Shown here: positions 1,636-21,190 of the stretch, one piece after another
How the letters are laid out: each line of letters opens with the position of its first letter
How positions within the stretch are numbered: position 1 is the first letter of the stretch
From: Fodinicurvata sp. EGI_FJ10296
GTDB lineage: Bacteria > Pseudomonadota > Alphaproteobacteria > DSM-16000 > Inquilinaceae
Reading direction: 5' to 3'
Assembly (NCBI RefSeq): GCF_040712075.1
Contig: NZ_JBFCVL010000006.1
Location: forward strand, 248,001-312,000
DNA: 64,000 nucleotides
The notes under the pieces: generated by a model
What the model was told of the DNA's origin: nothing
Seen by the model: only the letters and a program-made list of their open reading frames with translations
The model's database searches: none
Program-made: the position numbers and the translations under genes

Positions 1636-4600
1636 TTACGATCCGAAGACATAAGATTGCAGCGCCTCGACTTCAAGCTCACCTTCCTTCAGTGCGGCGA
1701 TGGCCTCTACCGCAGCGCGCGCCCCAGCGATCGTCGTATAATAGGGAATAGTATTGACCAGAGCGGTTCGCCGCAACCCCATGCTGTCGCGTACGGCCTG
1801 GGCGCTATCGGTCGTATTGATGACGAGGTCGATGACCCCGTTCTTCATTTCATCGACGATGTGGGGCTGGCCTTCCAGCACCTTGTTGACGGTGGTCACC
1901 GTCAGGCCGTGCGACGCGAGAAAGGCCTGGGTGCCGCGCGTAGCGACCAGGGTGAAGCCGAGTGCGGCCAGACCGCGGGCGATCGGTTCCAGGTTGGCCT
2001 TGTCGCGGTTGCGAACGGACAGGAAAGCCCGTCCCTCCCGCGGCAGGGTTACCCCTGCGCCCAGCTGTGACTTGAGAAAGGCGCGGCCGAAGCTTCGGTC
2101 GAGACCCATGACCTCGCCGGTGGACTTCATTTCCGGCCCGAGCAGTGTGTCGACCCCGGGGAATCGGGCGAACGGGAACACGGCTTCCTTGACCGCGACA
2201 TGGGGTGGCCGGTGGCCGAGCAGCAGCTTCTGGTCGCGGAATGTCGACAGCGGTTCGCCGGCCATGATCCGCGCGGCAATTTTGGCGATTGGCGTGCCGG
2301 TCGCCTTGGCGACGAACGGCACGGTCCGGCTGGCGCGGGGATTGACCTCGATGATGTAGATTTCGGCCGGCCCGTTCTCGGGGCCTCCCTCGGGTGTCTT
2401 GATGGCGAACTGCACGTTCATCAGTCCGACGACGCCCAGCTCTTTGGCCAGAAGCCGTGTCTGATCCTCGATCGCCGCCATGACGGCGTCGGTCAGACTG
2501 TGAGGCGGCAGGGCGCAGGCGCTGTCGCCCGAGTGGATTCCGGCTTCCTCGATGTGCTCCATGATCCCGGCGACATAGACGTCGCTGCCGTCGGAGACGG
2601 CGTCGACATCAACCTCCACGGCATCCTGAAGATAGCTGTCGATCAGTACCGGGTTGCGCCCCGAAACGATAACGGCCGTAGTGATGTAGCGGCGCAATTC
2701 CTCGCGGTTGTGGATCACCTCCATGGCGCGGCCGCCGAGGACATAGCTCGGCCGCAGAAGCAGGGGATAGCCCAGCCGTTCAGCGATCCGCTCGGCTTCT
2801 TCGGCCGACCGGGCAAGACCGTTCGCAGGCTGGCGAAGGCCGATGTCATTGAGCATGTCGGCGAACCGCTCGCGATCCTCCGCACGGTCGATGGCGTCCT
2901 TGGGTGTGCCCAGGATCGGTATGCCGGCGGCTTCGAGATCACCGGCGAGCTTCAGCGGTGTCTGCCCGCCGAACTGGACGATGACGCCCAGAAGGGCGCC
3001 GTTTCTTTGTTCCGTGCGCACGATCTCGATGACATCTTCGGTCGTCAGTGGCTCGAAATAGAGCCGGTCCGATGTATCGTAGTCAGTGGATACCGTCTCC
3101 GGGTTGCAGTTGACCATGATGGTCTCGTAGCCGGCCTCCTTCAGGGCATAGGCGGCGTGGACGCAGCAATAGTCGAACTCGATTCCCTGCCCGATCCTGT
3201 TGGGCCCGCCGCCGAGGATGATGATCTTGCGGCGGTCCGTCGGCAGGCTTTCGCAATCGGGCGGGTTGCCGTCGTCGGGTTCATAGCACGAATACATGTA
3301 CGAAGTGGGGGTCGAGAACTCCCCGGCGCAGGTATCGATCCGCTTGTAAATCGGCGTGACGTCCCGCGCCCGCCGCACCGCCGACACCGCGCGCTCATCC
3401 ATGCCGACCAGTTCGCCCAGGCGCGCATCCGCGAACCCCATCATCTTCAGGTCGAGCCAGTCACCGCGTGATTCGGGCAGGCCGTTCTTCTTCAAATCCG
3501 CTTCGGCAGTCACGATTTCGTTGATCCGATCGACGAACCACGGATCGTATTTGCAGATACTGGTGATTTCGGCCGGCGACATGCCGAGGCGCAGCGCCTG
3601 GGCGATGACGAGAATTCGATCGGGTGTCGGCCGCGACAGGGCCGCGCGCACCGGATTGAGATCCTTGACCGGCGCGCCGTCGTCGAGACCTTCGATGGCG
3701 ATCTCGTTCAGGCCGGTCCAGCCGGTCTCCAACGATCGCAGCGCTTTCTGAAAGCTCTCGGAAAAGCTGCGGCCGATGGCCATAGCCTCGCCGACGGATT
3801 TCATCGACGTGTTTAGCATCGGTTCCGCGCCGGCGAATTTCTCGAAGGTGAACCGGGGAATCTTGGTGACCACATAGTCGATCGTCGGCTCGAAACTGGC
3901 CGGCGTGACGCGGGTGATATCGTTGGTCAGTTCGTCAAGCGTATAGCCGACGGCCAGCTTTGCGGCCACCTTGGCGATCGGAAATCCGGTGGCCTTGGAC
4001 GCCAGGGCGGACGACCGCGATACCCGCGGATTCATTTCGATCACGACCAGTCGGCCAGTCTCCGGGTCGACGGCAAACTGCACATTCGAACCGCCGGTAT
4101 CGACGCCGATCTCCCGCAGCACCGCGATCGAGGCGCTTCGCATGATCTGGTATTCTTTGTCTGTCAGTGTCAGTGCCGGCGCGACGGTGATGCTGTCGCC
4201 GGTATGCACCCCCATCGGGTCGATGTTCTCGATGGCGCAGATGATGATGCAGTTGTCGGCCCGATCCCGGACCACTTCCATCTCGTACTCTTTCCAACCC
4301 AGTACGGATTCCTCGATCAGGACCTGGTGAACCGGGCTGAGCCTCAACCCGTTGCGGACAATGTTTTCGTATTCTTCCCGATTGTAGGCAATGCCGCCGC
4401 CAGCGCCGCCAAGGGTATAGCTGGGCCGGATAATGGCGGGCAGACCAACATACTCTAGCGCATCGGTTGCCTGATTAAAGTCGCTGACCAGACGCGACCG
4501 GGGACTGTCCAGGCCGATGCTGTCCATGGCTTCACGGAATTTCTGCCGGTCCTCGGCCTTGGCGATCACGTCCTTGTCGGCGCCGATCATTTCGATGCCG

Positions 4601-7206: not shown

Positions 7207-9216
7207 GTGTCGATACCGCCGTCGTTCCTTGAGGACGTAAAGAGCCGTATCGGGCTGTCTGATCTGGTCGGACGGTCCGTACGTCTAAAGAAGGCAGGGC
7301 GGGAATATTCCGGCCTCTGCCCGTTTCACAAGGAAAAATCCCCCAGTTTCACAGTCAACAACGACAAGGGCTTCTTTCACTGCTTCGGCTGCGGTGCCCA
7401 TGGCGATCACATCGGCTTTCTGACCGATCATGACGGCCTGTCCTTTATGGACGCCGTTGAGACGCTCGCGTCGATGGCGGGAATGGAAGTGCCGAGGCCG
7501 GCGCCTGGTGATCAGGCGCGGGAAAAGCGTCGCAAGACCCTTCATGATCTGGTCGAGGAGGCGTGCCGCTATTTTCAAGGTGCTTTGAACACGCGTGACG
7601 GTGAAACCGCACGTGACTACCTTAAGGGACGCGGATTGGACGATGCGGCGATCACCCGGTTCCGGATCGGATACGCGCCCGCGGCCGGTCAAAGGCTGGT
7701 GGAGCACCTGACGGCGCGAGAGTTCGACCCGGCGGCAATTGAAGAGGCCGGTCTCATTCGTACACCGGAGGACGGTCGCAAGCCGTACGCGTTTTTCCGC
7801 GACCGGATCGTCTTTCCCGTCACCGACCGACGTGGGCGCGTCGTGGCGTTCGGAGGCCGTGCGCTCAACGACAATGGCCCGAAATATCTCAACAGTCCCG
7901 ATGGCCCGATTTTTCACAAGGGCCGGCTTCTGTACAACCTTGCCGGTGCCGCACCCGCCGTGCAGCGCGGGCACGGATTGATCGTGGTCGAAGGCTATAT
8001 GGATGTCGTGGCACTGGTGCGGGCCGGTTTTCACGGCGCCGTCGCGCCGCTGGGAACGGCGCTGACCGAAGAGCAGGTCGATGTTCTCTGGCAGGTCTCG
8101 CGCGCGCCGGTGATCTGTTTCGATGGCGACAATGCCGGGCTTCGGGCTGCATTTCGCGCAGCGGAACGGGTGTTGCCCCGACTGCGTCCGGACCATACGA
8201 TCAAGATCGCGTTTCTGCCGTCGGGCGACGATCCGGATTCGCTGGTGCGTCGTGACGGCACAGAGGCTGTGCGCAAGGTCCTGACGGCGGCGCTGCCCCT
8301 GGCCGAAATCGTGTGGCGCGAGGAATATGCCCGTCACGATGTCAGCGCACCGGAAGGTCTGGCGGGACTCAGGGCAGGGCTCGACCAACGGGCGCAGTCG
8401 ATCGGAGACTCAACGGTTCGTACCTATTATCAGCAGCATTTCCGGGACCGCCTGGCCGAAGTTTTCCCATCGGGCAACCGATTCGCAGGATGGGGTAACG
8501 ATAACGGCAGAAGTGCCCGACCGGGTTCGGGATCCGATTCGCGCGGAGCGTGGAAATCCGGCGGACGAGGGAGAGGCGGCTGGTTCGGGAACCAGGGCCG
8601 CGCGAATGGTGCTCGCGCGGCTGGTGCGGGTGGTTCCCATGTGTCCCGCTACGCGCCATTGCCGGTCGAGCCGCCGTCGCGGGTAACGAACGCGCGATCG
8701 TTGATGCCGCTGATATTGTTGGCCCTGATCATCAATCACCCGCGTGCCTTCGACGAATATGGCGAAGTTCTGGGGCTGCTGCGTATCGAGGATGCCCAAC
8801 TCGACAGACTGCGCCAAAAGGTAATAGCCGTGCTTTCGGCATATGAATCGGAAACCGGGGCCGACTTGGAGACTCAACCGGGGCCAGTGCCGGGCGCTGC
8901 GGACGCGCAGGGTGAGACCGTCCTTGATTCGGAAGCCGCCAAAGGCCATCTAATCAATTCACTCGATACTGATGCGCTGAAAAGACTTGACCTTTCGGGC
9001 GTTTACGACCATGCGCCATATGTGGGATCCGACAGGAGCGACGAGGCTGCGATCGACGGGTGGCGAGAAACATGGCGTTTACATGGCGTTCGTGAGGTGC
9101 GTGACGAGATCAGGCGGGCACTGTCACTGCTCGAGGGCGATCCGTCCGAAGGCAATCGGCAGCGGATATCGGCCCTCAAGTCCATCGTTGCGGAAAACCG
9201 TGGCACCGGCCCGTGA
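7207..9216 (+). CDS. dnaG: DNA primase
   Basis: A 669-aa primase that lays RNA primers for Okazaki fragments and leading-strand initiation. The CHC2 zinc finger is Cys38-x2-His41-x17-Cys59-x2-Cys62. The catalytic TOPRIM core shows 'IVVEGYMDVVAL' (Glu) and 'ICFDGDNAG' (DxD). The C-terminal third is the helicase-interacting region, separated from the core by an unusually Gly/Arg/Ser-rich linker (roughly residues 420-490) that is probably disordered. The start is GTG at 7207 with GGAGG just upstream; no ATG matches the family N-terminus 'IPPSFLEDVKSRIGLSDLV'. Followed 390 bases later by rpoD as in the classical macromolecular synthesis operon. Confidence 0.97.
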   Translation: MSIPPSFLEDVKSRIGLSDLVGRSVRLKKAGREYSGLCPFHKEKSPSFTVNNDKGFFHCFGCGAHGDHIGFLTDHDGLSFMDAVETLASMAGMEVPRPAPGDQAREKRRKTLHDLVEEACRYFQGALNTRDGETARDYLKGRGLDDAAITRFRIGYAPAAGQRLVEHLTAREFDPAAIEEAGLIRTPEDGRKPYAFFRDRIVFPVTDRRGRVVAFGGRALNDNGPKYLNSPDGPIFHKGRLLYNLAGAAPAVQRGHGLIVVEGYMDVVALVRAGFHGAVAPLGTALTEEQVDVLWQVSRAPVICFDGDNAGLRAAFRAAERVLPRLRPDHTIKIAFLPSGDDPDSLVRRDGTEAVRKVLTAALPLAEIVWREEYARHDVSAPEGLAGLRAGLDQRAQSIGDSTVRTYYQQHFRDRLAEVFPSGNRFAGWGNDNGRSARPGSGSDSRGAWKSGGRGRGGWFGNQGRANGARAAGAGGSHVSRYAPLPVEPPSRVTNARSLMPLILLALIINHPRAFDEYGEVLGLLRIEDAQLDRLRQKVIAVLSAYESETGADLETQPGPVPGAADAQGETVLDSEAAKGHLINSLDTDALKRLDLSGVYDHAPYVGSDRSDEAAIDGWRETWRLHGVREVRDEIRRALSLLEGDPSEGNRQRISALKSIVAENRGTGP

Positions 9217-9302
9217 ACTCGGCGCGGCTCCATACGGATGGGTCAGCTGCAGATCGCTTGCCAGGCTCGCAACACGGCCCATTTTTCAATAAGGAGACAC
9301 GA

Positions 9303-9356
9303 ATGAATGCGGATGTTCAGGCTCTTTTATACTGTCCTGTTTGGTGCAGTTCATAG
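9303..9356 (+). CDS. Possible 17-aa leader or small peptide in dnaG-rpoD spacer
   Basis: ATG at 9303 is preceded by a near-perfect Shine-Dalgarno AAGGAG at 9291-9296 with six bases of spacing, stronger than the one before rpoD. It opens a 17-codon frame, MNADVQALLYCPVWCSS, ending in TAG at 9354. No family is recognised and the length is below what can be judged by composition. It could be a leader peptide, a true microprotein, or chance. The placement, between dnaG and a long dyad at 9409, makes a translation-coupled control element conceivable. Confidence 0.3.
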   Translation: MNADVQALLYCPVWCSS

Positions 9357-9408
9357 CGCAATGCCGGTGGCTATGGTTCCATTGAGTTGACCTCTGCACG
9401 TTTCGTCC

Positions 9409-9442
9409 ATGCCCGCAGCCGACCCGGGTCGTTTGCGGGCAT
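9409..9442. repeat. 34-bp near-perfect dyad between dnaG and rpoD
   Basis: Arms ATGCCCGCA (9409-9417) and TGCGGGCAT (9434-9442) flank a central GACCCGGGTC palindrome (9421-9430), all sharing one symmetry axis at 9425.5. As RNA it would form a stem of about 17 bp with one mismatch and one G-U pair. No T-run follows, so it is not an ordinary intrinsic terminator. In E. coli the dnaG-rpoD junction contains an RNA processing site and rpoD has internal promoters, so a processing hairpin or protein operator are both plausible. Confidence 0.6.
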
Positions 9443-9606
9443 CGACGTTTCAGTGGGGGTTCCGGCCTCGTCGCAGGTTTTCGGCGCCCAGTGCGACCGA
9501 ACACAGGCAATGGATGGCGCGGGTTGCCGCGCGGCCCATCGTCGCTTTCGACGAGGATAATCTGATCGGACGGTCCCGTTTGTCGGACGGAAATTGCGAG
9601 TAGTAT

Positions 9607-11835: not shown

Positions 11836-12291
11836 ATGGCAGCTAAAGGGATGGCGCTGAAGCCCGGTTTCGGCCGTGATGCCGTGAATTCGCGCCCGGT
11901 GAAAGGTTGCGTCGTGTTTCTGGCTCTGTCGCTTGTTGCGGCGTGCAGTGATTCCGCTGGAACCGGGGACGTCGCCAGTTCTGGCGCAGAAGAAGACGCG
12001 CACGCGATGACCGGCAGTGTCGTTCAGGGCCGGTTCACCGCGCAGCGCTGGTGTTCGTCGTGTCACCAGGTTGACGCTACGGCGCCGGGTGTCGAGGCCG
12101 GAGCGCCGGCCTTTGTTGCCGTGGCAAACAGACCGGACACGACGCGAAGTTCGCTTCTGGACTTCATGGATGAGACCCACCCGGTCTACAGCCTCGGCGC
12201 TCCGATCGATATGCCGACGGATGTCCTGTATGAACGGGAAAAAGCCGATCTTGTAGCTTATATAGTTTCTCTCCGCCAGACCGACGACTAG
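11836..12291 (+). CDS. Lipoprotein-type monoheme cytochrome c
   Basis: A 151-aa secreted protein. A hydrophobic segment ends in the lipobox LVAAC (Cys37), predicting a lipid anchor. One heme-binding motif is present, CSSCH at residues 73-77, and a Met in 'APIDMPTDVLY' near the C-terminus may be the sixth ligand. The tail 'EKADLVAYIVSLR' is the closing helix typical of class I cytochromes c. It probably carries electrons in the periplasm; the partner is unknown. An alternative start at codon 6 would also retain the signal sequence. It stands alone between rpoD and a tRNA gene. Confidence 0.8.
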   Translation: MAAKGMALKPGFGRDAVNSRPVKGCVVFLALSLVAACSDSAGTGDVASSGAEEDAHAMTGSVVQGRFTAQRWCSSCHQVDATAPGVEAGAPAFVAVANRPDTTRSSLLDFMDETHPVYSLGAPIDMPTDVLYEREKADLVAYIVSLRQTDD

Positions 12292-12386
12292 GGCTGCCGT
12301 GCCATCGGCCCTGGCATCGGTGGCGCGACAGCGGCAATTGATCGTTGACGCGAACGACCGGGAAGGCTAACCCTTCGCAACGGTTG

Positions 12387-12463
12387 GGGCCTGTAGCTCA
12401 ACTGGTTAGAGCCGGCCGCTCATAACGGTCTGGTTGGGGGTTCGAGTCCCTCCGGGCCCACCA
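12387..12463 (+). tRNA. tRNA with CAU anticodon, probably tRNA-Ile2 (lysidine type)
   Basis: A 77-nt cloverleaf with encoded CCA. The acceptor GGGCCTG pairs with CGGGCCC (one G-T), the D-arm is GCTC...GAGC, and the anticodon stem GGCCG/CGGTC encloses CTCATAA with CAT at 12421-12423. The T-loop is TTCGAGT. CAU can be initiator, elongator Met, or Ile2 read as AUA after TilS modification. The first acceptor pair is G-C, which argues against initiator tRNA, and the overall sequence resembles alphaproteobacterial tRNA-Ile(CAU) from memory. Confidence 0.9.
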
Positions 12464-12747
12464 AGATTTTCAATCATTTGACTTTTAGGTTACGGACTGC
12501 GTTCCGGTTCAATGAACCTGAACGTGGTTCGGCGGACTTATCCGGTGTGCCCGTCAACCGGTGCACGCCGTGTTCGCGCCAGCCGGGCAGATGCGGCGAC
12601 CGCCAACGCCTGGTCACGGGTTATCGACACCCCGTGTGATGCGTCTTGCCTCAAAGCCGCGATTTCATTAACATTTACCCGCTTTGGTTTCGGTCAGGTA
12701 TCGGGTTACAGCGCCATGCTTGCTTTTCGCGATACCAGCGAGCTTTC
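12464..12747. other. tRNA to nucleotidyltransferase intergenic region
   Basis: No gene is supported in these 284 bases. A 13-bp palindrome GGTTCAATGAACC lies at 12506-12518. An AT-richer patch around 12662-12680 (CATTAACATTTACC) could hold the promoter of the following nucleotidyltransferase-ABC pair, but no clear -35/-10 match is seen. The frame of the next gene stays open to a TTG at 12646, which I do not take as the start. No repeat of the tRNA 3' end was noticed further downstream, so a tRNA-integrated island is not shown. Confidence 0.4.
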
Positions 12748-13986
12748 ATGACCCAGGCGTCTGCTCTCGCCCTGATCCATCCGGTTCTCCTGCCCTCCGA
12801 GGTGCGACTTCTGCTTTTGCTGTCGCGCCCCGCCCTGTCGGCCGCGCAGCAGGAACGCGCGCGCGTGCTTGTTCGGCAGGTTGTTGATTGGCAGGCACTC
12901 GTCGACACCGCATGGCGCAAATACGTCCTGCCCCTGGTCTACCAGAACCTTGCCGCGCTGGGGCGTGGCGCGCCTACCGACGACGTATTGGCGATCATGC
13001 GCCCCCTTGCTCTGCTCGGGACGTCGGGAATGCTCCGCTGGCACGCGGCCTTCGACTGGTTCCACGAACGCTGCGTCCTCGCATCGGGCGTGCCCTATGC
13101 ATATTTGAAGGGCCGCGCCCTGGCGGCCCGTTTCTATCCGGACCCGGCACTGCGAATGTTCCGGGATGTCGACATTCTGGTGCCGCCCGATCGCCTGCCC
13201 GAGATGCTGCTTTGCGCGATCAATCAGGGCTGCACAGTCTTTCTGAAAGACGAACCGGACACTGAATTTGACTTGAGCACCGAGGATAAGCTCGCAGAGT
13301 TCGTGTATATGAACCCGGTCCCGAGCGTGCTGATGCCGCAGGGATTACTGGTGGAAATCCATGGAGAGATCGACCAGCACACGAAGCTGTTCCGCACCGA
13401 CGATCTTCTGCGCGATGCACAGGAAACGGCGACCCGGAACCACCGCATCAAGGTGTTGCCGGATGCCCCGCATATTACCTTCATCTGCTATCACCACACA
13501 CGCCACTTGTGGAGCAAGCTCAACTGGCTCGCCGATCTCGACGCGATCTGTGCGCATCCCGAATTCGACCGGGGCGCGGTTCTGGACTATGCGCGCGCCG
13601 TAAAGCTCGACACCACGGTCGCCGCGACGCTCGAATTCCACGAACTGGCATCGAACGCGCTTCACCCGGCCGATCTCGATCGCGCGACGCCCGGCGGCGA
13701 TCTGCTGCGCGCCTGCGTCGACGGCCTTGCCGGCGATGACGAACTCGAGGCGCAGATGCGTCAGGGACAAGTCCTGAATGCCTTCTCCTTCGAATGGCAG
13801 AGAATGCCGGTGTCGCGCTGGCGCTTCCTGCAATTGACGTTGTTGAAGAAGTTCAGGCCGAGTTACGCGGATTTCCGCGCCTTGCCAGGGGGGTTCAGGC
13901 TGCGTCGACTACGCTATGCGCTGGCGACCGGTTACCGGATTCCCCGCTACGCTATTCAACGGCTGCAACGGGCTCGACGGCAATGA
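12748..13986 (+). CDS. Nucleotidyltransferase family protein (NTP_transf_5-like) of lasso cluster
   Basis: A 412-aa soluble protein. The segment 'YAYLKGRALAARFYPDPALR' followed by 'RDVDILVP' (about residues 124-145) is the hallmark of the uncharacterised nucleotidyltransferase family PF14907, with the DxD likely binding metal. Such proteins recur beside PqqD-like and HPr-kinase-like genes in RiPP clusters, including the paeninodin-type lasso peptide clusters; their reaction is not established. ATG 12748 was preferred over an in-frame TTG at 12646. Its stop overlaps the ATG of the ABC exporter gene (ATGA), so the two are translationally coupled. Candidate tailoring enzyme that transfers a nucleotidyl or related group. 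Confidence 0.8.
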   Translation: MTQASALALIHPVLLPSEVRLLLLLSRPALSAAQQERARVLVRQVVDWQALVDTAWRKYVLPLVYQNLAALGRGAPTDDVLAIMRPLALLGTSGMLRWHAAFDWFHERCVLASGVPYAYLKGRALAARFYPDPALRMFRDVDILVPPDRLPEMLLCAINQGCTVFLKDEPDTEFDLSTEDKLAEFVYMNPVPSVLMPQGLLVEIHGEIDQHTKLFRTDDLLRDAQETATRNHRIKVLPDAPHITFICYHHTRHLWSKLNWLADLDAICAHPEFDRGAVLDYARAVKLDTTVAATLEFHELASNALHPADLDRATPGGDLLRACVDGLAGDDELEAQMRQGQVLNAFSFEWQRMPVSRWRFLQLTLLKKFRPSYADFRALPGGFRLRRLRYALATGYRIPRYAIQRLQRARRQ

Positions 13987-15803
13987 CCCTCACTGCCCGA
14001 GCGCGCCAGAGCCTGAGCCTGTGGCGCAAGCTTTACGACCTCTTGCGTTTCAGCAGCCGTGGCCTGAGCCTCGTCGTGGCCGTCCTGTTAGTTGCCGAGG
14101 CGGTCTTCGGGATCGCGCTGCTCTATTTCGTCAAGCTGCTGGTCGATGTCGTCTCCGAGCAACTCGGGGAGGGGGGCAGCATCGCGAATCCGGCGCAGAT
14201 ATTCCTGTATCTCGGGTTGATCGGCCTGATGATGGTGCTGGCCGTCGCCTTTCAGCGCCTCGGCGACTATGCGGGTCAGCGGCAAGGCATGGAGGTTGCG
14301 GACTACGTCGACCGCTTGATCCACGAACGCGCCATCCAGGTAGACCTATCGTTCTACGAAAATCCGCAATACTACGACTCACTGCAGCGCGCCCGTGCGG
14401 CCGGAAGCCAGCGGCCGGCGATGGTCATCACCACCCTTTCGCAGCTTCTCCGCAGTGTGCTCTTTCTCGTAGCAATTCTCGTCCTGATGGCGGCGCTGGA
14501 CTGGCGGCTGGTCCCGATTATTGTGGTAAGCATGGCGGCGGCCCTGGTGGTGCGGATGCATTTCACGCGTCTGCTCCATCTGTGGCGGCATCGCCGTGCG
14601 CAGATGGAACGCCGCGCCGAGTATCTGGACTGGCTGCTGACGTCGGCCGAACACGCCAAGGAACTGCGTATAGGCCGGCTCGGGGGCGAGCTGCGCGACC
14701 GCTACAGTCGCCTGCGCCGCCAGATCCGTTCGGAACAGCTATCCATCGAAAAGCGCAAAATGGTGGCCGAGGTCGGCGCTGCGGCGGCTGCGGCGCTGGT
14801 CTTCTTCGGTGCCACGACATGGCTGGTGTTGCGCGTGATCGAAGGAACGACAGGGCTGGGCGATCTTGTGCTTTTCCTGCTGCTTTTCCGGCGCGCCGAA
14901 GCCAGCGGACGCGAATTTGTCACGGCATTGTCGGGGACCTACGACCACCAGCTCTACCTGTCGCATCTTTTCAGTTTCTTCGAGGTCAGCCCCGAAATCA
15001 CGACGCCGGCACAGCCGGCGCTGCTACCGCACCCAATTCGCCAAGGTATACGCTTTCACGGGGTCACCTTCACTTATCCGGCCACCGAGACCCCCGCCCT
15101 TTCCAGCGTGGATTTCGAACTGCAGGCGGGAAAGATCACGGCCATCGTCGGCGAGAACGGCTCGGGAAAGACCTCGCTGATCAAGCTGCTCTGCCGCCTC
15201 TATGATCCCACCGAGGGCAGCATAACGCTGGATGGCGTCGATATCCGCGAGTTCGATCCGGTCGAATACCGGCGGATATTCAGCGTCATCTTCCAGGATT
15301 ACGCACGCTACGCCGAAACGGTCGGTGAAAATATTCGCTTCGGTGATATCACCGTCGAAGGTGGCGATCCGAGAATAGCGCACGCCGCCGATCTGGGCGG
15401 GGGCAGCGACTTCATCCGGCGGCTTCCGAAAGGGCTGGAAACTCCGTTGACCAAACTCTTCGACGACGGTCACGAACTCAGTCTCGGGCAATGGCAACGC
15501 GTCGCGCTGTCGCGGGCGTTCTTCCCGCATTCCGAATTCATCATCATGGACGAACCCACCAGCGCCGTCGACCCGCGTGCCGAAGCCGAGCTTTTCGACA
15601 ATTTTCGCGCCAGGCTGGAAGGCCGGGGGGCGCTGATCATCTCGCACCGGCTGTCCACCATTCGCATGGCCGACACCATCTACATGCTCAGTGATGGCAA
15701 GGTCCTGGAGCACGGCACCCACGAGGCCCTGGTCGCCCGGCAGGGCCGTTATGCGCAACTCTTCGAGCGACAGGCCCGGCCGTTCCGCTCTGCGAACCCT
15801 TAA
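13983..15803 (+). CDS. Lasso peptide ABC exporter (McjD-type, fused TMD-NBD)
   Basis: A 606-aa half-transporter that should dimerise in the inner membrane and export the mature peptide, which also gives producer immunity in known systems. The N-terminal ~310 residues form the six-helix exporter domain. The nucleotide-binding domain has Walker A 'GENGSGKTS' (about 390), the Q-loop 'IFQDYARYA', signature 'LSLGQWQRV' (about 499), Walker B 'FIIMDEPTSAVD' (about 515-526) and the H-loop 'IISHRLSTI'. ATG 13983 overlaps the end of the nucleotidyltransferase gene; an in-frame open stretch upstream is inside that gene. It converges on the cyclase gene with a 23-base gap. Confidence 0.9.
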   Translation: MTLTARARQSLSLWRKLYDLLRFSSRGLSLVVAVLLVAEAVFGIALLYFVKLLVDVVSEQLGEGGSIANPAQIFLYLGLIGLMMVLAVAFQRLGDYAGQRQGMEVADYVDRLIHERAIQVDLSFYENPQYYDSLQRARAAGSQRPAMVITTLSQLLRSVLFLVAILVLMAALDWRLVPIIVVSMAAALVVRMHFTRLLHLWRHRRAQMERRAEYLDWLLTSAEHAKELRIGRLGGELRDRYSRLRRQIRSEQLSIEKRKMVAEVGAAAAAALVFFGATTWLVLRVIEGTTGLGDLVLFLLLFRRAEASGREFVTALSGTYDHQLYLSHLFSFFEVSPEITTPAQPALLPHPIRQGIRFHGVTFTYPATETPALSSVDFELQAGKITAIVGENGSGKTSLIKLLCRLYDPTEGSITLDGVDIREFDPVEYRRIFSVIFQDYARYAETVGENIRFGDITVEGGDPRIAHAADLGGGSDFIRRLPKGLETPLTKLFDDGHELSLGQWQRVALSRAFFPHSEFIIMDEPTSAVDPRAEAELFDNFRARLEGRGALIISHRLSTIRMADTIYMLSDGKVLEHGTHEALVARQGRYAQLFERQARPFRSANP

Positions 15804-15826: not shown

Positions 15827-17713
15827 TCAGGTCCAATACCGGCGCAGCCAGACTTCGAGGCAAAGAATCTCCCATAGACCCGTCGTGCTCCCGCCGCGGG
15901 AGGCCGCTTCATACAGGGCTTGCAGCTTGGCGTCGTCGACAAAGCCGCGGGCAGCGACCTGAGAGTCGGTGATCAGATGGGTGATCGTGTCGCGCGCTCC
16001 GATCTGCAGGGCGTATTGCGAAAGCGGACCCAGCGACACCTTGTCCAGCTTCTGCCTTGCGTCTTCCGGCATCATGCCTTTCATGGCGTCCCGGGCCAAG
16101 CGCTTGTAACCGCTCGGTCGGTTCAGTTCTTCCTGCGGAATGGCCAGCACGAATTCAACAAGGCGTCGATCGCTCCACGGATCGGCATGTAGCAGGCCGT
16201 GTCGCGCATGGTTGCGCTCGAAATCGACCATGGTGAAAGCATAAAGAGGATCGAAGATAGTCTGATAACGCCGGCGCACCGAGGCGTTTCGAACCGAGGT
16301 TGGTGCTTCCACGGATGCCAGTTGTTTCGCCAGACCGGCCCGCTCGGCGAATTCGGAGCGGAGCCAGTCCGGATATGGCGGCACCTTGGGTCGGCCGATC
16401 ATTCGATGCCAAAACCATCGCTGTATCGGTGCCTGGAGCCCGCTTGGTCCCCATGACATCAGCGCCGGCAAGAGCAAGTGCTTGGTGACCGATTTCGGGA
16501 ACCGACGCCATGTTCGGCGGTCGGGTTTCAGCACCATCGAAAGATCCTGCCACAGTCCTGCTGTCAAGAAGCTTAGGGCATCGTAGTATACCCCCACCAG
16601 GAGATCACCACGGAAACCGGTGATCATCGTCGCGACGCCATCTGCGCGCGCGCGAGAAAGCACGCGATCATTAAGTGGGCGAAATATCAATGTCGTGGGC
16701 GCGTCTGGTGTTGGCCCGTTTTCGGGGTGGTCCGCAAGCGGAAATGCATCATCAGCCGGAACGTTGGTCGCGGGGAGGCGATAGCGATCAGTAATCAGGC
16801 GACTGACGTGACGCTCGTCACATTGCGCCAGACGCTCGAACGCATGGGAATAAGTGCGGAATTCACCAAGGCCCGCCGGATCATTCTCCAGTAGCCAGCC
16901 GGCCGTTGCCGCGACTGAGCCGGAATCCACGCCCCCGCTCAGCATCAAGCCAACAGGACGGTCACCACGCAGCCGGCAGCAGACCGCCTCCTTGAAAAGC
17001 TCGCGGAAGTGATCGGTGTATTCGCTGGCGTTGCGATAGCGGATCCGGCGGCCGGCCTCGACGTCCCAGTATCGCCAGACCCGCGTTCGTCCCTGCTGGA
17101 TCGTTAGGGCATGGCCCGGGGGCAACTGCGCGATACCGCGATAGAAGGTCCGATCCAGCGCCACCGGCTGGGCGGTCAAATGCGCTGCGACCATAAGTTC
17201 GTCAAGCTCGGCTGGAACGCCCCGGACGGCAAGGATCTGGGCGATTTCGCTCGCAAAAATCAATTGGTGATCGGTCAGCCGGTAATAGAGCGGGCGCGAT
17301 GACATCGGATCTCGCGCCAGAAGCAGGCGTCGCTCGGTGCGATCCCAGATGCCAAAGGCGAAATCGCCGATCAGATGGTCGACGCAGGCGCGCCCCCAGC
17401 GGCGATAGGCCGACAGGATGAGACGCGCACTGCCGGCAGCCTCTCCTCCGTCCACCGTCGATGCATTCAGCAGGTCCTGGCGATTGTCGATCCGCGCATC
17501 GGCGGCAATAACCAGCCCGCCTTCCACTAGTGGCTGGGGGGCCCGGTCCTCTGGCGTGACATGAAGCGCCAAATGACCGAGAGCGACACTGTCTCCGACC
17601 CAGTTTCCGGCGCCGTCGGGGCCGCGATGCGATCCGGCATCGAGCATGGCCTGCAGCGAGGTCCGGTTGGCCGGTCCGCCTTGAAGGTTGAGGATTCCGC
17701 AGACTCCACTCAC
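15827..17713 (-). CDS. Lasso peptide cyclase, asparagine synthetase-like (protein C)
   Basis: A 628-aa asparagine-synthetase homologue. In lasso peptide biosynthesis this protein adenylates the side-chain carboxylate of Asp/Glu and closes the macrolactam with the core N-terminus. The N-terminal Ntn-like domain begins MSGVCGILNL with the Cys at position 5 rather than directly after Met; this shift would block the usual processed Cys nucleophile and fits loss of glutaminase activity. The ATP-pyrophosphatase motif SGGVDS lies at residues 259-264. Its start overlaps the stop of the B2 gene by four bases (ATGA), and it is third in the B1-B2-C minus-strand operon. Confidence 0.9.
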   Translation of the reverse strand: MSGVCGILNLQGGPANRTSLQAMLDAGSHRGPDGAGNWVGDSVALGHLALHVTPEDRAPQPLVEGGLVIAADARIDNRQDLLNASTVDGGEAAGSARLILSAYRRWGRACVDHLIGDFAFGIWDRTERRLLLARDPMSSRPLYYRLTDHQLIFASEIAQILAVRGVPAELDELMVAAHLTAQPVALDRTFYRGIAQLPPGHALTIQQGRTRVWRYWDVEAGRRIRYRNASEYTDHFRELFKEAVCCRLRGDRPVGLMLSGGVDSGSVAATAGWLLENDPAGLGEFRTYSHAFERLAQCDERHVSRLITDRYRLPATNVPADDAFPLADHPENGPTPDAPTTLIFRPLNDRVLSRARADGVATMITGFRGDLLVGVYYDALSFLTAGLWQDLSMVLKPDRRTWRRFPKSVTKHLLLPALMSWGPSGLQAPIQRWFWHRMIGRPKVPPYPDWLRSEFAERAGLAKQLASVEAPTSVRNASVRRRYQTIFDPLYAFTMVDFERNHARHGLLHADPWSDRRLVEFVLAIPQEELNRPSGYKRLARDAMKGMMPEDARQKLDKVSLGPLSQYALQIGARDTITHLITDSQVAARGFVDDAKLQALYEAASRGGSTTGLWEILCLEVWLRRYWT

Positions 17714-18267
17714 CGGGGAACGTGTCGTCCGAGATATCGCTCCAGCGAGGGCATCGGTGTGAACCGCGCCATGTCCGGAAGTTCGCCCACCACGACTTCG
17801 CCCCGATGCTCAATCCAGGCATGTGCCTCGAAGCCACGCTCAGGGTCCTGACGGATCCCGATCCGCACCTCGCTCTCATGGCCCGCGCGGCCAAGCATAA
17901 TCTGGCTGGCCAAGGCTTGGGGAAGGCAGTTGGCCTTGGGGATCACACGGCCTGCACGCTGGACCGCCTGCGCCAGGTCGTGAACCCCCGGCCCGTCAGC
18001 GCGGGACAGACCACGCCGATCCCGCGCCCGACAGGTCAGCCGCAACGCGGTTTTTAGCGGCACGAGCCACAGGGCGATGCGCACGGCCGCCAGGATCGGC
18101 ACCGCACGCAGAAACAGCCGGCGCTCATTTGCCGGAGAGCGCAGAAAGCGCAAGATCCTTTGTTGCCACGAAGATGCTGCCCGGTTCATGCGACGTCCCG
18201 TACGTGTGCTTGCACCGCCTGGGGTGAGCCGACGGTCCAGCTCGTGCTTGTCTCCGGCCATCCGCAT
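17710..18267 (-). CDS. Lasso peptide leader protease (B2, transglutaminase-like)
   Basis: A 185-aa protein of the McjB C-terminal/B2 family, a transglutaminase-fold cysteine protease that cuts the leader from the precursor. The probable triad is Cys114 in 'KANCLPQALA', His149 in 'FEAHAWIE' and Asp165 (or Glu162) in 'VVVGELPDM'. The annotated ATG lies one base after the B1 stop; a Met at codon 27 (MNRAASSWQQ) is an alternative that fits the usual shorter N-terminus. It needs the separate RRE protein B1 for substrate binding, which is the gene immediately upstream. Four-base overlap with the cyclase gene. Confidence 0.9.
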   Translation of the reverse strand: MRMAGDKHELDRRLTPGGASTRTGRRMNRAASSWQQRILRFLRSPANERRLFLRAVPILAAVRIALWLVPLKTALRLTCRARDRRGLSRADGPGVHDLAQAVQRAGRVIPKANCLPQALASQIMLGRAGHESEVRIGIRQDPERGFEAHAWIEHRGEVVVGELPDMARFTPMPSLERYLGRHVPR

Positions 18268-18268
18268 T

Positions 18269-18550
18269 TCAGCGCACCGTGATCAGTCGTGCGCGCGCCA
18301 TGTCTTGCAGAAGCGAGACGATGTCGGCTTCGCAGCGCTCGGCGTCGACGTCATGGGTCGAGGTGATATTATCGACGATCTCGTTGACCGTCGTGGGCTT
18401 CTGAATCAGCCCCCAGACCTCGGTTCCCAGTTCATTCAGGTTGTAGTAGCGGTCAGTCTCAACCTGTAAGATTACAAGCCCTTCGGCCAGCGGCGCCGCC
18501 AGCGGCTCCGGCTTTGCTTCAACAACCGATCGGACCGTAATTGCATCCAT
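18269..18550 (-). CDS. PqqD-like RiPP recognition element (lasso protein B1)
   Basis: A 93-aa PqqD-family protein. The wing and helices are visible: 'LVILQVETDRYYNLNELGTEVWGLIQKPTTVNEIV' followed by 'ADIVSLLQDMARARLI'. Standalone proteins of this kind bind the YxxP region of the lasso leader and deliver it to B2. It is the first gene of the minus-strand operon, divergent from the precursor gene 233 bases away. The ATG at 18550 has only a weak AAAGAT upstream. Confidence 0.9.
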   Translation of the reverse strand: MDAITVRSVVEAKPEPLAAPLAEGLVILQVETDRYYNLNELGTEVWGLIQKPTTVNEIVDNITSTHDVDAERCEADIVSLLQDMARARLITVR

Positions 18551-18783: not shown

Positions 18784-18939
18784 ATGAACCCACCTAAAAA
18801 GCCATATCACCGTCCCGTCCTTGAAGATCTTGGGACAGCGAAGGAACTGACTCGAGTCGGTCTTACGAACCCTGGCTCGGATACGGTACGTGGTCGGCCT
18901 ATGGGTGGTTCAGTCATGCTGCCGGGTCCGGCACGTTGA
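18784..18939 (+). CDS. Lasso peptide precursor (protein A), 51 aa
   Basis: This small gene opens at ATG 18784 with GAGGG eight bases before it. The leader fits the lasso consensus YxxPxLxxxGx5Tx exactly: Tyr8, Pro11, Leu13, Gly17, Thr23. With Thr at -2 the core would begin at Val25; if it begins at the usual Gly, it starts at Gly26 with GLTNPGSD. The only acidic residue after the leader is Asp33, position 9 or 8 respectively, so it must be the ring acceptor if this is a lasso peptide. The tail is Gly/Pro/Met-rich with Arg36, Arg38 and a terminal Arg51 (ending PGPAR). Followed after 30 bases by the PRTase-RRE fusion gene. Confidence 0.88.
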   Translation: MNPPKKPYHRPVLEDLGTAKELTRVGLTNPGSDTVRGRPMGGSVMLPGPAR

Positions 18940-18969: not shown

Positions 18970-20172
18970 ATGAAGGCAGGCAGATTTGTTTTCCTGGCTG
19001 GTTCATGTGATCATGTCCCGCCAGGAACAGAAAGAGTCAGCTTCGATAATTTTTTAAGCGCGCGAGACGCAGAGTCGATTGCCCGCGCGCTGGCGAGCAG
19101 CTCTGTCTGGCGTGAATTTCGCGAAGCGGTCCTCATTGTACGGACCGAACCGGAAGCACGCATCGCCGTAGCCGGGTACTTCGATGATTCGGATGAGGTG
19201 CGGCTGCAGTACCTGCTTCACCGCATCCAGGATGACCTGCCGAGGCTTCACCATGTCGGCTATGATCAGGCGCAAGCTGACTGCCTGCACCTGGCCTCTC
19301 TACTGCAGGCGCGTTTCGGAAGCGCTGCCCGGGATGAATTTCAGTATGCCGCGATTCCGCGAGGCGGGCACATCGTCCTTGGAATGCTGGCCTATGCTCT
19401 CGACCTGCCCGCCGAACGCTTTACGCTCCCCGACTCGGCCCCCAACTCGCCTCAGGTCCCGCTGGTCGTCGTCGATGACTGCGCCCTGAGCGGCGCCCGA
19501 TTCAAAGGCTTCTTGCCCAGGCTTGCAAGCGACAACATCATCTTCACACCACTTTATTCCCCACCGGCATTGCGCCGCGCGATCGTTGAGCGGGAGCCGC
19601 GCGTGCTGGATTGCCTGAGTGCAAATGACCTGGAGGACGAAGCGCCCGTCCGGCAAGGTGCAGGATATGCGGACTGGCTGGAATTCCAGCGGCAAAGAGG
19701 CGGCGATGGCGGCTACTGGTGCGGTCAGTACCCCCCCTTCGGCTTTGCCTGGAACGAACCGGATGTCGGATTCTGGAATCCGGTGACCAGCCGACGGGAG
19801 AAGCACTGGAATCTCCTGCCACCCGAGCTTTGCCTCAAGAACCGGATTGGCTGGGATCCCGATGCCGCGCGGATCCAGGTGAACAAGGACGACACGGGCC
19901 CCATCGTTGTCGGCAAGGGCGTGCTTTATGCCGATTTTGGCGACACCATTCTTGTCGGCGAGGCCAGTTCGGGGCGCACCCATGCACTCGATAATGTCGG
20001 GGCCGACATGTGGCGGGCCCTGGTGACAACCGGCGACACCAGACCCGCCCTTGCCGTCTTGCGCGCGGCTTATGATGTAGACGACGCCACCCTCGGCCGC
20101 GACCTCCAGGCCCTTGCCGAAACCCTGTTCGGCAAGGGGCTTCTGCAGCGGAGACAAGACGGTGACGATTGA
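18970..20172 (+). CDS. Phosphoribosyltransferase-like protein fused to PqqD-like RRE
   Basis: A 400-aa two-domain protein. Residues ~95-215 look like a type I phosphoribosyltransferase: 'AAIPRGGHIVLGMLAYAL' (PRGG at 130-133) and the PRPP-loop-like 'VVVDDCALSGARF' (166-178). Residues ~315-395 look like PqqD: 'HALDNVGADMWRALVTTGD' then 'LGRDLQALAETLFGKGLLQR'. I infer that the RRE brings the lasso precursor to a PRPP- or ribose-phosphate-dependent reaction; no such activity is proven. ATG 18970 is poorly placed relative to the SD AAGGAGAAGG (18941-18950), which better suits a GTG at 18957 in another frame that stops at 19010. Ends overlapping the kinase gene. Confidence 0.78.
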   Translation: MKAGRFVFLAGSCDHVPPGTERVSFDNFLSARDAESIARALASSSVWREFREAVLIVRTEPEARIAVAGYFDDSDEVRLQYLLHRIQDDLPRLHHVGYDQAQADCLHLASLLQARFGSAARDEFQYAAIPRGGHIVLGMLAYALDLPAERFTLPDSAPNSPQVPLVVVDDCALSGARFKGFLPRLASDNIIFTPLYSPPALRRAIVEREPRVLDCLSANDLEDEAPVRQGAGYADWLEFQRQRGGDGGYWCGQYPPFGFAWNEPDVGFWNPVTSRREKHWNLLPPELCLKNRIGWDPDAARIQVNKDDTGPIVVGKGVLYADFGDTILVGEASSGRTHALDNVGADMWRALVTTGDTRPALAVLRAAYDVDDATLGRDLQALAETLFGKGLLQRRQDGDD

Positions 20173-21190
20173 TCGAGGTTCAAGGGCGGTCGCGGCGCCG
20201 TCACTGCGACGCCATCGACTGTATGGCCTCACCATGGCGAGCGACTTTCCCTTCCGGAATCGCCTGTCGAAGGGCGATGGTGCGCCTGATCTTGTCTTCG
20301 CCCGCGTCCGCGAGGCGCCGGAGGACTTCGACCCCGATGCGCAGTTGCCGGTATATGTCAGTCCAATTCGTCCGGGTGACAGCGTGCCATTCTTTCGCAT
20401 CTATGTATTGCGTGCCGGCACCCCGGACGAGGTGCTGGTACTCAACTACCCGGAGTCGGCCGACCATTTTCTTTATCTTGACCGCATCGTCACGCATCGG
20501 CGCCATCCGACCTCCGACTACCTCGTCGAGATTCAACTGCTCGGCGACGTATTCTCGGTCTGGCTGGAACGCCGGGGGGTGATCGCGCTGCACGCCTCGG
20601 CGGTTGTGATCGGCGACGCCTGCATCGGGTTTCTGGCCAGCAACAAGGGCGGTAAGACGTCGCTCGCCGCCAGCCTGATGCAGACGGACTGCCCACTGCT
20701 GACCGACGACATCCTGCCGCTCGAAGCGACGGCCGGAGGCGTGGTAGGTCATCCCGGTTTCCCGCAAATGCGGATGTGGCCCGACGTAGCGGACCATTTC
20801 CTGGCCGACTGGAGCGATGCGGAAACAGTTCATCCGGCCTTCACCAAGCGCCGCATCGATGTCTGCCCACAGCGACTGGGAGCCTTTCACGATCGGGCGG
20901 TGCGTGTGGCGCGCCTTTTCGTGCCGGAAATGATTGCTGATGACAGCCAACAGGTCGAGATGGAGCGCCTGTCCACGCGCGAGGTCCTGGCGTATTTGCT
21001 GGGCAATTCCTTCGCTGTCGATTGGGTTGACGCATTGGGGTGGCAGAAACGGCGGCTGAATCTTCTCGCCCGAACAGCAACCACGGTTCCCGTCCTGCGT
21101 TTGCGCTATCCCCGCGGTATGGATCGGTTACCGGAGGTGCGGCAGGCGATCCTCGACAGTTGCACCCAGTCGGGCTGCGCGCACCGTTAG
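20162..21190 (+). CDS. HPr kinase-like protein of lasso cluster
   Basis: A 342-aa protein resembling the C-terminal catalytic domain of HPr kinase/phosphorylase. It has 'GVIALHASAVVIGD', the P-loop-like 'ASNKGGKTS' (159-167, Ala where the first P-loop Gly normally is) and 'CPLLTDDILPLEA' (Asp182/183). Homologues in paeninodin-type lasso clusters phosphorylate the C-terminal Ser of the precursor. Here the precursor ends in Arg, so the target must differ or the protein may have another role. GTG 20162, overlapping the previous stop by 11 bases and preceded by GGAG, is chosen as start; ATG at codon 25 (MASDFPFRNR) is an alternative. Confidence 0.82.
   Translation: MTIDRGSRAVAAPSLRRHRLYGLTMASDFPFRNRLSKGDGAPDLVFARVREAPEDFDPDAQLPVYVSPIRPGDSVPFFRIYVLRAGTPDEVLVLNYPESADHFLYLDRIVTHRRHPTSDYLVEIQLLGDVFSVWLERRGVIALHASAVVIGDACIGFLASNKGGKTSLAASLMQTDCPLLTDDILPLEATAGGVVGHPGFPQMRMWPDVADHFLADWSDAETVHPAFTKRRIDVCPQRLGAFHDRAVRVARLFVPEMIADDSQQVEMERLSTREVLAYLLGNSFAVDWVDALGWQKRRLNLLARTATTVPVLRLRYPRGMDRLPEVRQAILDSCTQSGCAHR

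Follow-up and report, generated by a model that had tools for sequence, protein, structure and literature searches.

Phosphoribosyltransferases (PRTases) are familiar from the synthesis of nucleotides and nucleotide precursors. What, then, would a protein of this fold do when its gene follows that of a lasso precursor and its C-terminus resembles PqqD, a leader-binding type of domain (RRE)? Such a gene is found in the window, i.e. the whole 64,000-nucleotide stretch of Fodinicurvata sp. EGI_FJ10296 DNA analysed here, and it is present in only one copy in the genome. We propose that its product is an RRE-bearing PRTase-fold protein working in lasso-peptide maturation (probability of about 0.85), the best reading being that of a dedicated tailoring enzyme in a subset of lasso clusters. 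There is good support for the architecture of the protein and for its cluster; the chemistry is what we infer.

The initial annotation had assigned this gene to a RiPP pathway together with a B1 protein. Indeed, the gene lies within a complete lasso cluster, in which A, B1, B2 and C are all present (Table 1). The likely start of the kinase gene falls inside the 3' end of the PRTase gene, so that the two may be translationally coupled. The kinase of the window retains the His (LHASAV), the P-loop Lys (GGKTS) and the Asp-Asp pair (LLTDD). Farther from the PRTase-RRE gene, the cluster contains the PF14907 nucleotidyltransferase gene, listed as an open reading frame from 12646 and more likely to start at the ATG given in the table, followed by the ABC exporter gene.

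Table 1. Features of the lasso cluster (positions in the window) and of the PRTase-RRE protein (positions in amino acids, aa).
Feature	Position	Strand	Remarks
PF14907 nucleotidyltransferase (NTP_transf_5)	12748..13986	+	ATG at 12748
ABC exporter (transmembrane + ATPase)	13983..15803	+	start codon inferred
C, lasso cyclase, asparagine-synthase family	15827..17713	-	best NCBIfam NF033535, below its cut-off
B2, lasso leader peptidase	17710..18267	-	Transglut_core3; NF033537
B1, stand-alone PqqD/RRE	18269..18550	-	
Lasso precursor A	18784..18939	+	MNPPKKPYHRPVLEDLGTAKELTRVGLTNPGSDTVRGRPMGGSVMLPGPAR; NF033521 above cut-off (leader match)
PRTase-fold protein with C-terminal PqqD-like RRE	18970..20172	+	ATG, 400 aa
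HprK-like peptide kinase	20162..21190	+	GTG start, inferred
PPi-loop PRGG of the PRTase-RRE protein	aa 130-133		
PRPP motif VVVDDCALSGARF of the PRTase-RRE protein	aa 166-178		
Conserved W-x-E-P...W-N...W block of the PRTase-RRE protein	aa 250-292		
RRE of the PRTase-RRE protein	about aa 312-394		

Two motifs, a PPi loop and a PRPP motif, had suggested a type I PRTase, and we found both at the positions originally given. They are kept, as PRGG and LVVVDDCA[LI][ST]GxR, in 17/17 homologues, where the two blocks are invariant or nearly so, and they are among the most conserved residues of the protein along with the W-x-E-P block. Outside both loops, W250, G252, F259, W261, E263, P264, W269, N270, W280 and P284 are conserved; these residues may line the pocket where the acceptor binds. 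In the PRPP loop, the usual DTG(G/K)T is replaced by LSGAR. When the window protein was compared with Pfam, residues 333-392 matched PqqD (E 4.7e-7, over the curated cut-off) and the PRTase part alone gave no significant match (PRTase-CE, E 0.11). Among the 18 members of the family, PqqD is matched by 18/18, PRTase-CE by 14/18 (best 4.2e-5, under its cut-off) and Pribosyltran by 7/18 (best 7.3e-4).

The structure was predicted by AlphaFold2 with the 18-sequence alignment (pLDDT 85.1, pTM 0.80), the least confident regions being residues 9-31 and the linker near residue 292; a model from the single sequence was discarded (pLDDT 34.6). When this model was compared with the PDB by Foldseek, we obtained two independent matches, one to the E. 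coli xanthine-guanine PRTase XGPRT (4jit, E 1.9e-5, TMt 0.59, rmsd 3.8) and one to the TbiB1-leader complex (5v1v, E 1.9e-5, TMt 0.86). A profile of the PRTase part also retrieved a xanthine PRTase (XGPRT) gene of another genome (E 5e-4), and hhalign aligned this part with 21 XGPRT sequences (E 1.5e-6, 90% probability), placing RGG over RGG and DD over DD. The C-terminal RRE gave profile matches to the lasso RREs TbiB1 and TfuB1. The PRTase fold and the PqqD-like domain proposed at the outset thus both reappear in the model, and the predicted architecture, a type I PRTase core with an RRE, is well supported. Since the motifs are conserved and both profile matches to XGPRT and structure matches to XGPRT and TbiB1 were obtained, the observation is beyond chance.

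Two departures from the known folds were observed. In the hhalign alignment, the flexible catalytic loop, which runs from beta2 to the PRPP loop, is essentially absent, leaving a gap of about 20 residues relative to XGPRT; at this place the relatives have a short stretch, hypervariable between them, of about 16 residues (aa about 149-164). It is mainly this missing loop that calls for caution about catalysis. In the RRE, whose predicted fold makes leader binding plausible, the beta3 region is without the YY/YH and L-N pattern typical of B1 of the same loci.

How widespread is this protein? A survey of the phylum gave one full-length relative, 39% identical, in Litchfieldella (locus L020). With the single protein as query, only RRE matches were obtained in 289 genomes of the class, and a scan of species-genome contigs found no relatives. 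With the pair alignment as query of 84,980 species genomes, we found 18 loci with PRTase-RRE relatives (L016-L033), distributed among Pseudomonadota, Gemmatimonadota, Chloroflexota, Spirochaetota, Acidobacteriota and one archaeal bin. The latter is labelled Methanospirillaceae from a 5-kb MAG contig, and the label may be a binning error. An origin as phage or plasmid cargo is unsupported because no PRTase-RRE relatives were found in the plasmids, phages and viral contigs searched. Two relatives look like broken copies or assembly errors: in L032 the N-terminal half is missing and the contig carries no lasso genes, and L033 is garbled past its middle. Many source bins (CSSed, T1Sed, B1Sed, GEM2, DLM2) apparently belong to series of sediment samples from soda or saline lakes, Halomonas and Litchfieldella are halophiles, and a haloalkaline bias among these loci is possible.

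Nearly all intact relatives lie within lasso clusters, in the order A-PRT-HprK, extended to C-A-PRT-HprK in most long loci. The cyclase C is present in the window and at L016-L018, L020-L029 and L031; it was not found at L019, which shows glycosyltransferase genes, or at L030, which shows B2. Near the clusters of L022, L023, L024, L026 and L031, our small custom models recognised no B1 or B2; B2-like genes occur elsewhere in the assemblies of L022, L023, L026 and L031, and not in that of L024. Two loci have duplicated parts: L017 has two lasso cyclase genes (7643-9487 and 11982-13913) with a single recognised precursor, and L025 has two tandem precursors (3360-3497 and 3536-3769) ahead of the PRTase gene.

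We also observed exopolysaccharide (EPS) or capsule genes adjoining about half of the PRT loci (L017, L019, L020, L022, L023, L028, L031, L032 and L033), namely Poly_export/Wza, EpsG, UDP-glucose dehydrogenase, RmlD, sugar transferases and glycosyltransferases; L028, L031 and L032 are not independent in this respect because one EPS locus is common to them. The same query set matched 2/20 kinase-only loci (L073 and L077), where the flanks are shorter, and no such neighbours are seen in the window.

The co-occurrence of the fusion with kinase and nucleotidyltransferase genes, suggested as a check, proved very strong for the former and only partial for the latter. An HprK-like kinase is encoded in every intact locus whose contig is long enough, that of L016 ending too early to judge. 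As a rule its gene is directly downstream of the PRTase gene (window, L017-L029 and L031), and in many loci the two overlap or adjoin; at L030 it is located about 3 kb upstream on the opposite strand. Distance matrices of PRT and HprK are correlated with r = 0.91 (15 loci) versus 0.83 for PRT and C, which indicates joint inheritance and not contact, the sequences being of common descent. The PRT-linked kinases retain the His, the P-loop Lys and the Asp-Asp, and residues of this H-K-D-D type were named essential in lasso kinases (PMC9266682). Conversely, a PRTase was found in 0/20 other alphaproteobacterial kinase loci, mostly lasso clusters. One alphaproteobacterial genome with several of our loci (G095, L071-L081) has nine HprK-like kinase matches, several of them in separate lasso clusters. 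A nucleotidyltransferase is present in the cluster only in the window and at L017, L020, L022 and L028; none was found near L018 and L031, though their flanks are long.

Which residue of the peptide could be modified? A C-terminal Ser is present in 1/16 precursors from PRT clusters versus 9/10 from kinase-only loci (Fisher p 3e-5, for sequences that are not independent); the latter count covers 10 loci because L066, L068-L070, L072, L074, L077 and L083-L085 have no clear precursor. The window precursor ends in Arg, with a candidate ring G1-D8 (GLTNPGSD) and a tail G-S at GGSV. A tail G-[ST], a motif defined post hoc, is found in 15/16 PRT-cluster precursors versus 7.7 +/- 1.8 when tails are shuffled, and 0/5000 shuffled sets reached the observed count. 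However, the precursor of L073, a kinase-only locus, ends in TMM, has an internal GGS and is without C-terminal Ser; since it breaks the pattern, the tail G-[ST] may mark a lasso subfamily and not the action of the PRTase. L073 is a lasso locus with a nucleotidyltransferase and adjoins rmlB/rmlD-like genes. In most of the 16 precursors the sequence is T-x-[VAT]-G; because two residues thus separate the leader Thr from the Gly, the ring would have 8 residues if it starts at this Gly and 9 if it starts at V/A/T, where the usual Thr(-2) rule would place its first residue.

We infer leader binding, PRPP use, the acceptor residue and the order of the steps as follows. The C-terminal RRE, by itself or beside B1, would dock on the leader of precursor A and so bring the core within reach of the type I PRTase-fold domain. 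The HprK-like kinase would phosphorylate a tail Ser/Thr, in all likelihood the one in the conserved G-[ST], and the PRTase-fold domain would then move the 5-phosphoribosyl group from PRPP to the new phosphate or directly to the hydroxyl. The product would be a phosphoribosylated lasso peptide, and in clusters with a PF14907 nucleotidyltransferase this enzyme may extend the modification. RRE-guided tailoring of this general kind, with phosphorylation of the tail by the kinase and a PRTase-fold enzyme that adds or handles phosphoribosyl, has in our view slightly less than an even chance of being right. Catalysed transfer of phosphoribosyl to the peptide is a shade more doubtful than that. The fully specified version, PRPP-dependent phosphoribosylation of the kinase-installed phosphate, so that the tail bears a phosphodiester-linked (or polyphosphate-extended) ribose phosphate, is rather unlikely in all its details. 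PRPP is able to donate to a phosphate, as in the reaction of decaprenyl-phosphate phosphoribosyltransferase. A sugar on a phosphorylated lasso Ser has a precedent in pseudomycoidin, where a kinase and then a nucleotidyltransferase homologue act on Ser, adding a phosphate and then a hexose (PMC9266682). The reverse reaction, removal of phosphoribosyl, which the initial annotation had also envisaged, received no support.

Because the flexible loop is missing, readings as adaptor, sensor, maker of a building block or enzyme with another donor all stay viable. The PRTase fold could be non-catalytic, and the protein would then serve as a second RRE adaptor, offering the leader (and tail) to an HprK-like kinase that itself lacks an RRE; we consider this improbable, at perhaps one chance in several. 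The absent loop, the obligate adjacency to HprK with the closest distance correlation (r 0.91), the overlapping or adjacent genes in many loci and the suggestion that B1 is a helper of lasso kinases (PMC9266682) are all in agreement with it. Yet a plain adaptor would need no PPi-loop, PRPP-loop or W-x-E-P residues, and all of these are highly conserved. Retention of the PRPP motif with loss of the catalytic loop would suit a regulator that, as a sensor of PRPP or nucleotide status, controls maturation of the peptide by way of its RRE, and PurR-type regulators have the PRTase fold. The protein, however, shows no DNA- or RNA-binding domain, is closely tied to a peptide kinase and to features of the precursor, and occurs across phyla almost only inside lasso clusters, so that we regard this role as quite unlikely.

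Similar odds, if anything a trace better, are given to the same pocket transferring or removing something else (another phosphosugar donor, or removal of phosphoribosyl): the deviant PRPP loop LSGAR and the conserved aromatic W-x-E-P...W-N...W region would fit, but no specific alternative donor is indicated. Least probable of all is synthesis by the enzyme of a free ribosyl or nucleotide building block, for the PF14907 nucleotidyltransferase to attach to the phosphorylated peptide. Although the nucleotidyltransferase gene belongs to the clusters of the window, L017, L020, L022 and L028, it is missing from the long flanks of L018 and L031, and an RRE is hard to explain if the enzyme acts on a small molecule only.

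A search of the open-access literature found no description of a PRTase with lasso, RRE or RiPP; the locus is a lasso cluster variant with a new tailoring component. A PRPP-derived mark on a ribosomal peptide is what one would predict from a PRTase that is joined to a leader-binding domain of RiPPs and conserved, in several phyla, together with a peptide kinase. If true, RiPP chemistry would gain a post-translational modification and a donor that are both new to it. Even a non-catalytic protein would delimit sharply a group of kinase-bearing lasso clusters in which phosphorylation probably takes place at another site. Litchfieldella qijiaojingensis, a cultured species, has a PRTase-RRE relative and is a ready test system.

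Among known proteins, XGPRT resembles the PRTase-RRE protein in its core fold, the RGG of its PPi loop, the DD of its PRPP loop and the upstream helix pattern. Unlike XGPRT, the PRTase-RRE protein is without the catalytic flexible loop and has a deviant PRPP loop; it adds an N-terminal region, the W-x-E-P block and the C-terminal RRE, and its acceptor is presumably a peptide. Of the Pfam families, PRTase-CE (PF24390) is the one that the PRTase part matches best in most members: a PRTase-CE protein (L086) has DD-x-x-x-TG-x-R in common with it, and both end in a P/W-rich block, whereas no RRE was seen in the PRTase-CE proteins examined. An identity with PRTase-CE was rejected, all members being under the curated cut-off of 27 bits (window 12.7, best 24.0); hhalign also failed, against a poor alignment of four divergent CE proteins. 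The C-terminal 80 residues match TbiB1/TfuB1 in profile and fold, but here the RRE is fused to a PRTase fold and its beta3 pattern is unlike that of B1.

At cluster level, the pseudomycoidin cluster (PsmK and PsmN), likened here by its description, also combines a kinase with a nucleotidyltransferase-type gene and puts a sugar on a phosphorylated Ser, and no PRTase is described there (PMC9266682). The paeninodin-type clusters (PadeK, ThcoK, SyanK; PMC9266682) likewise encode an HprK-like kinase with the H-K-D-D residues in a lasso cluster. The window cluster does not belong to this class, as ruled out by its missing C-terminal Ser: compared with the paeninodin type, precursors of PRT clusters are without the C-terminal Ser modified by the kinase, and the clusters carry the PRTase-RRE gene in addition.
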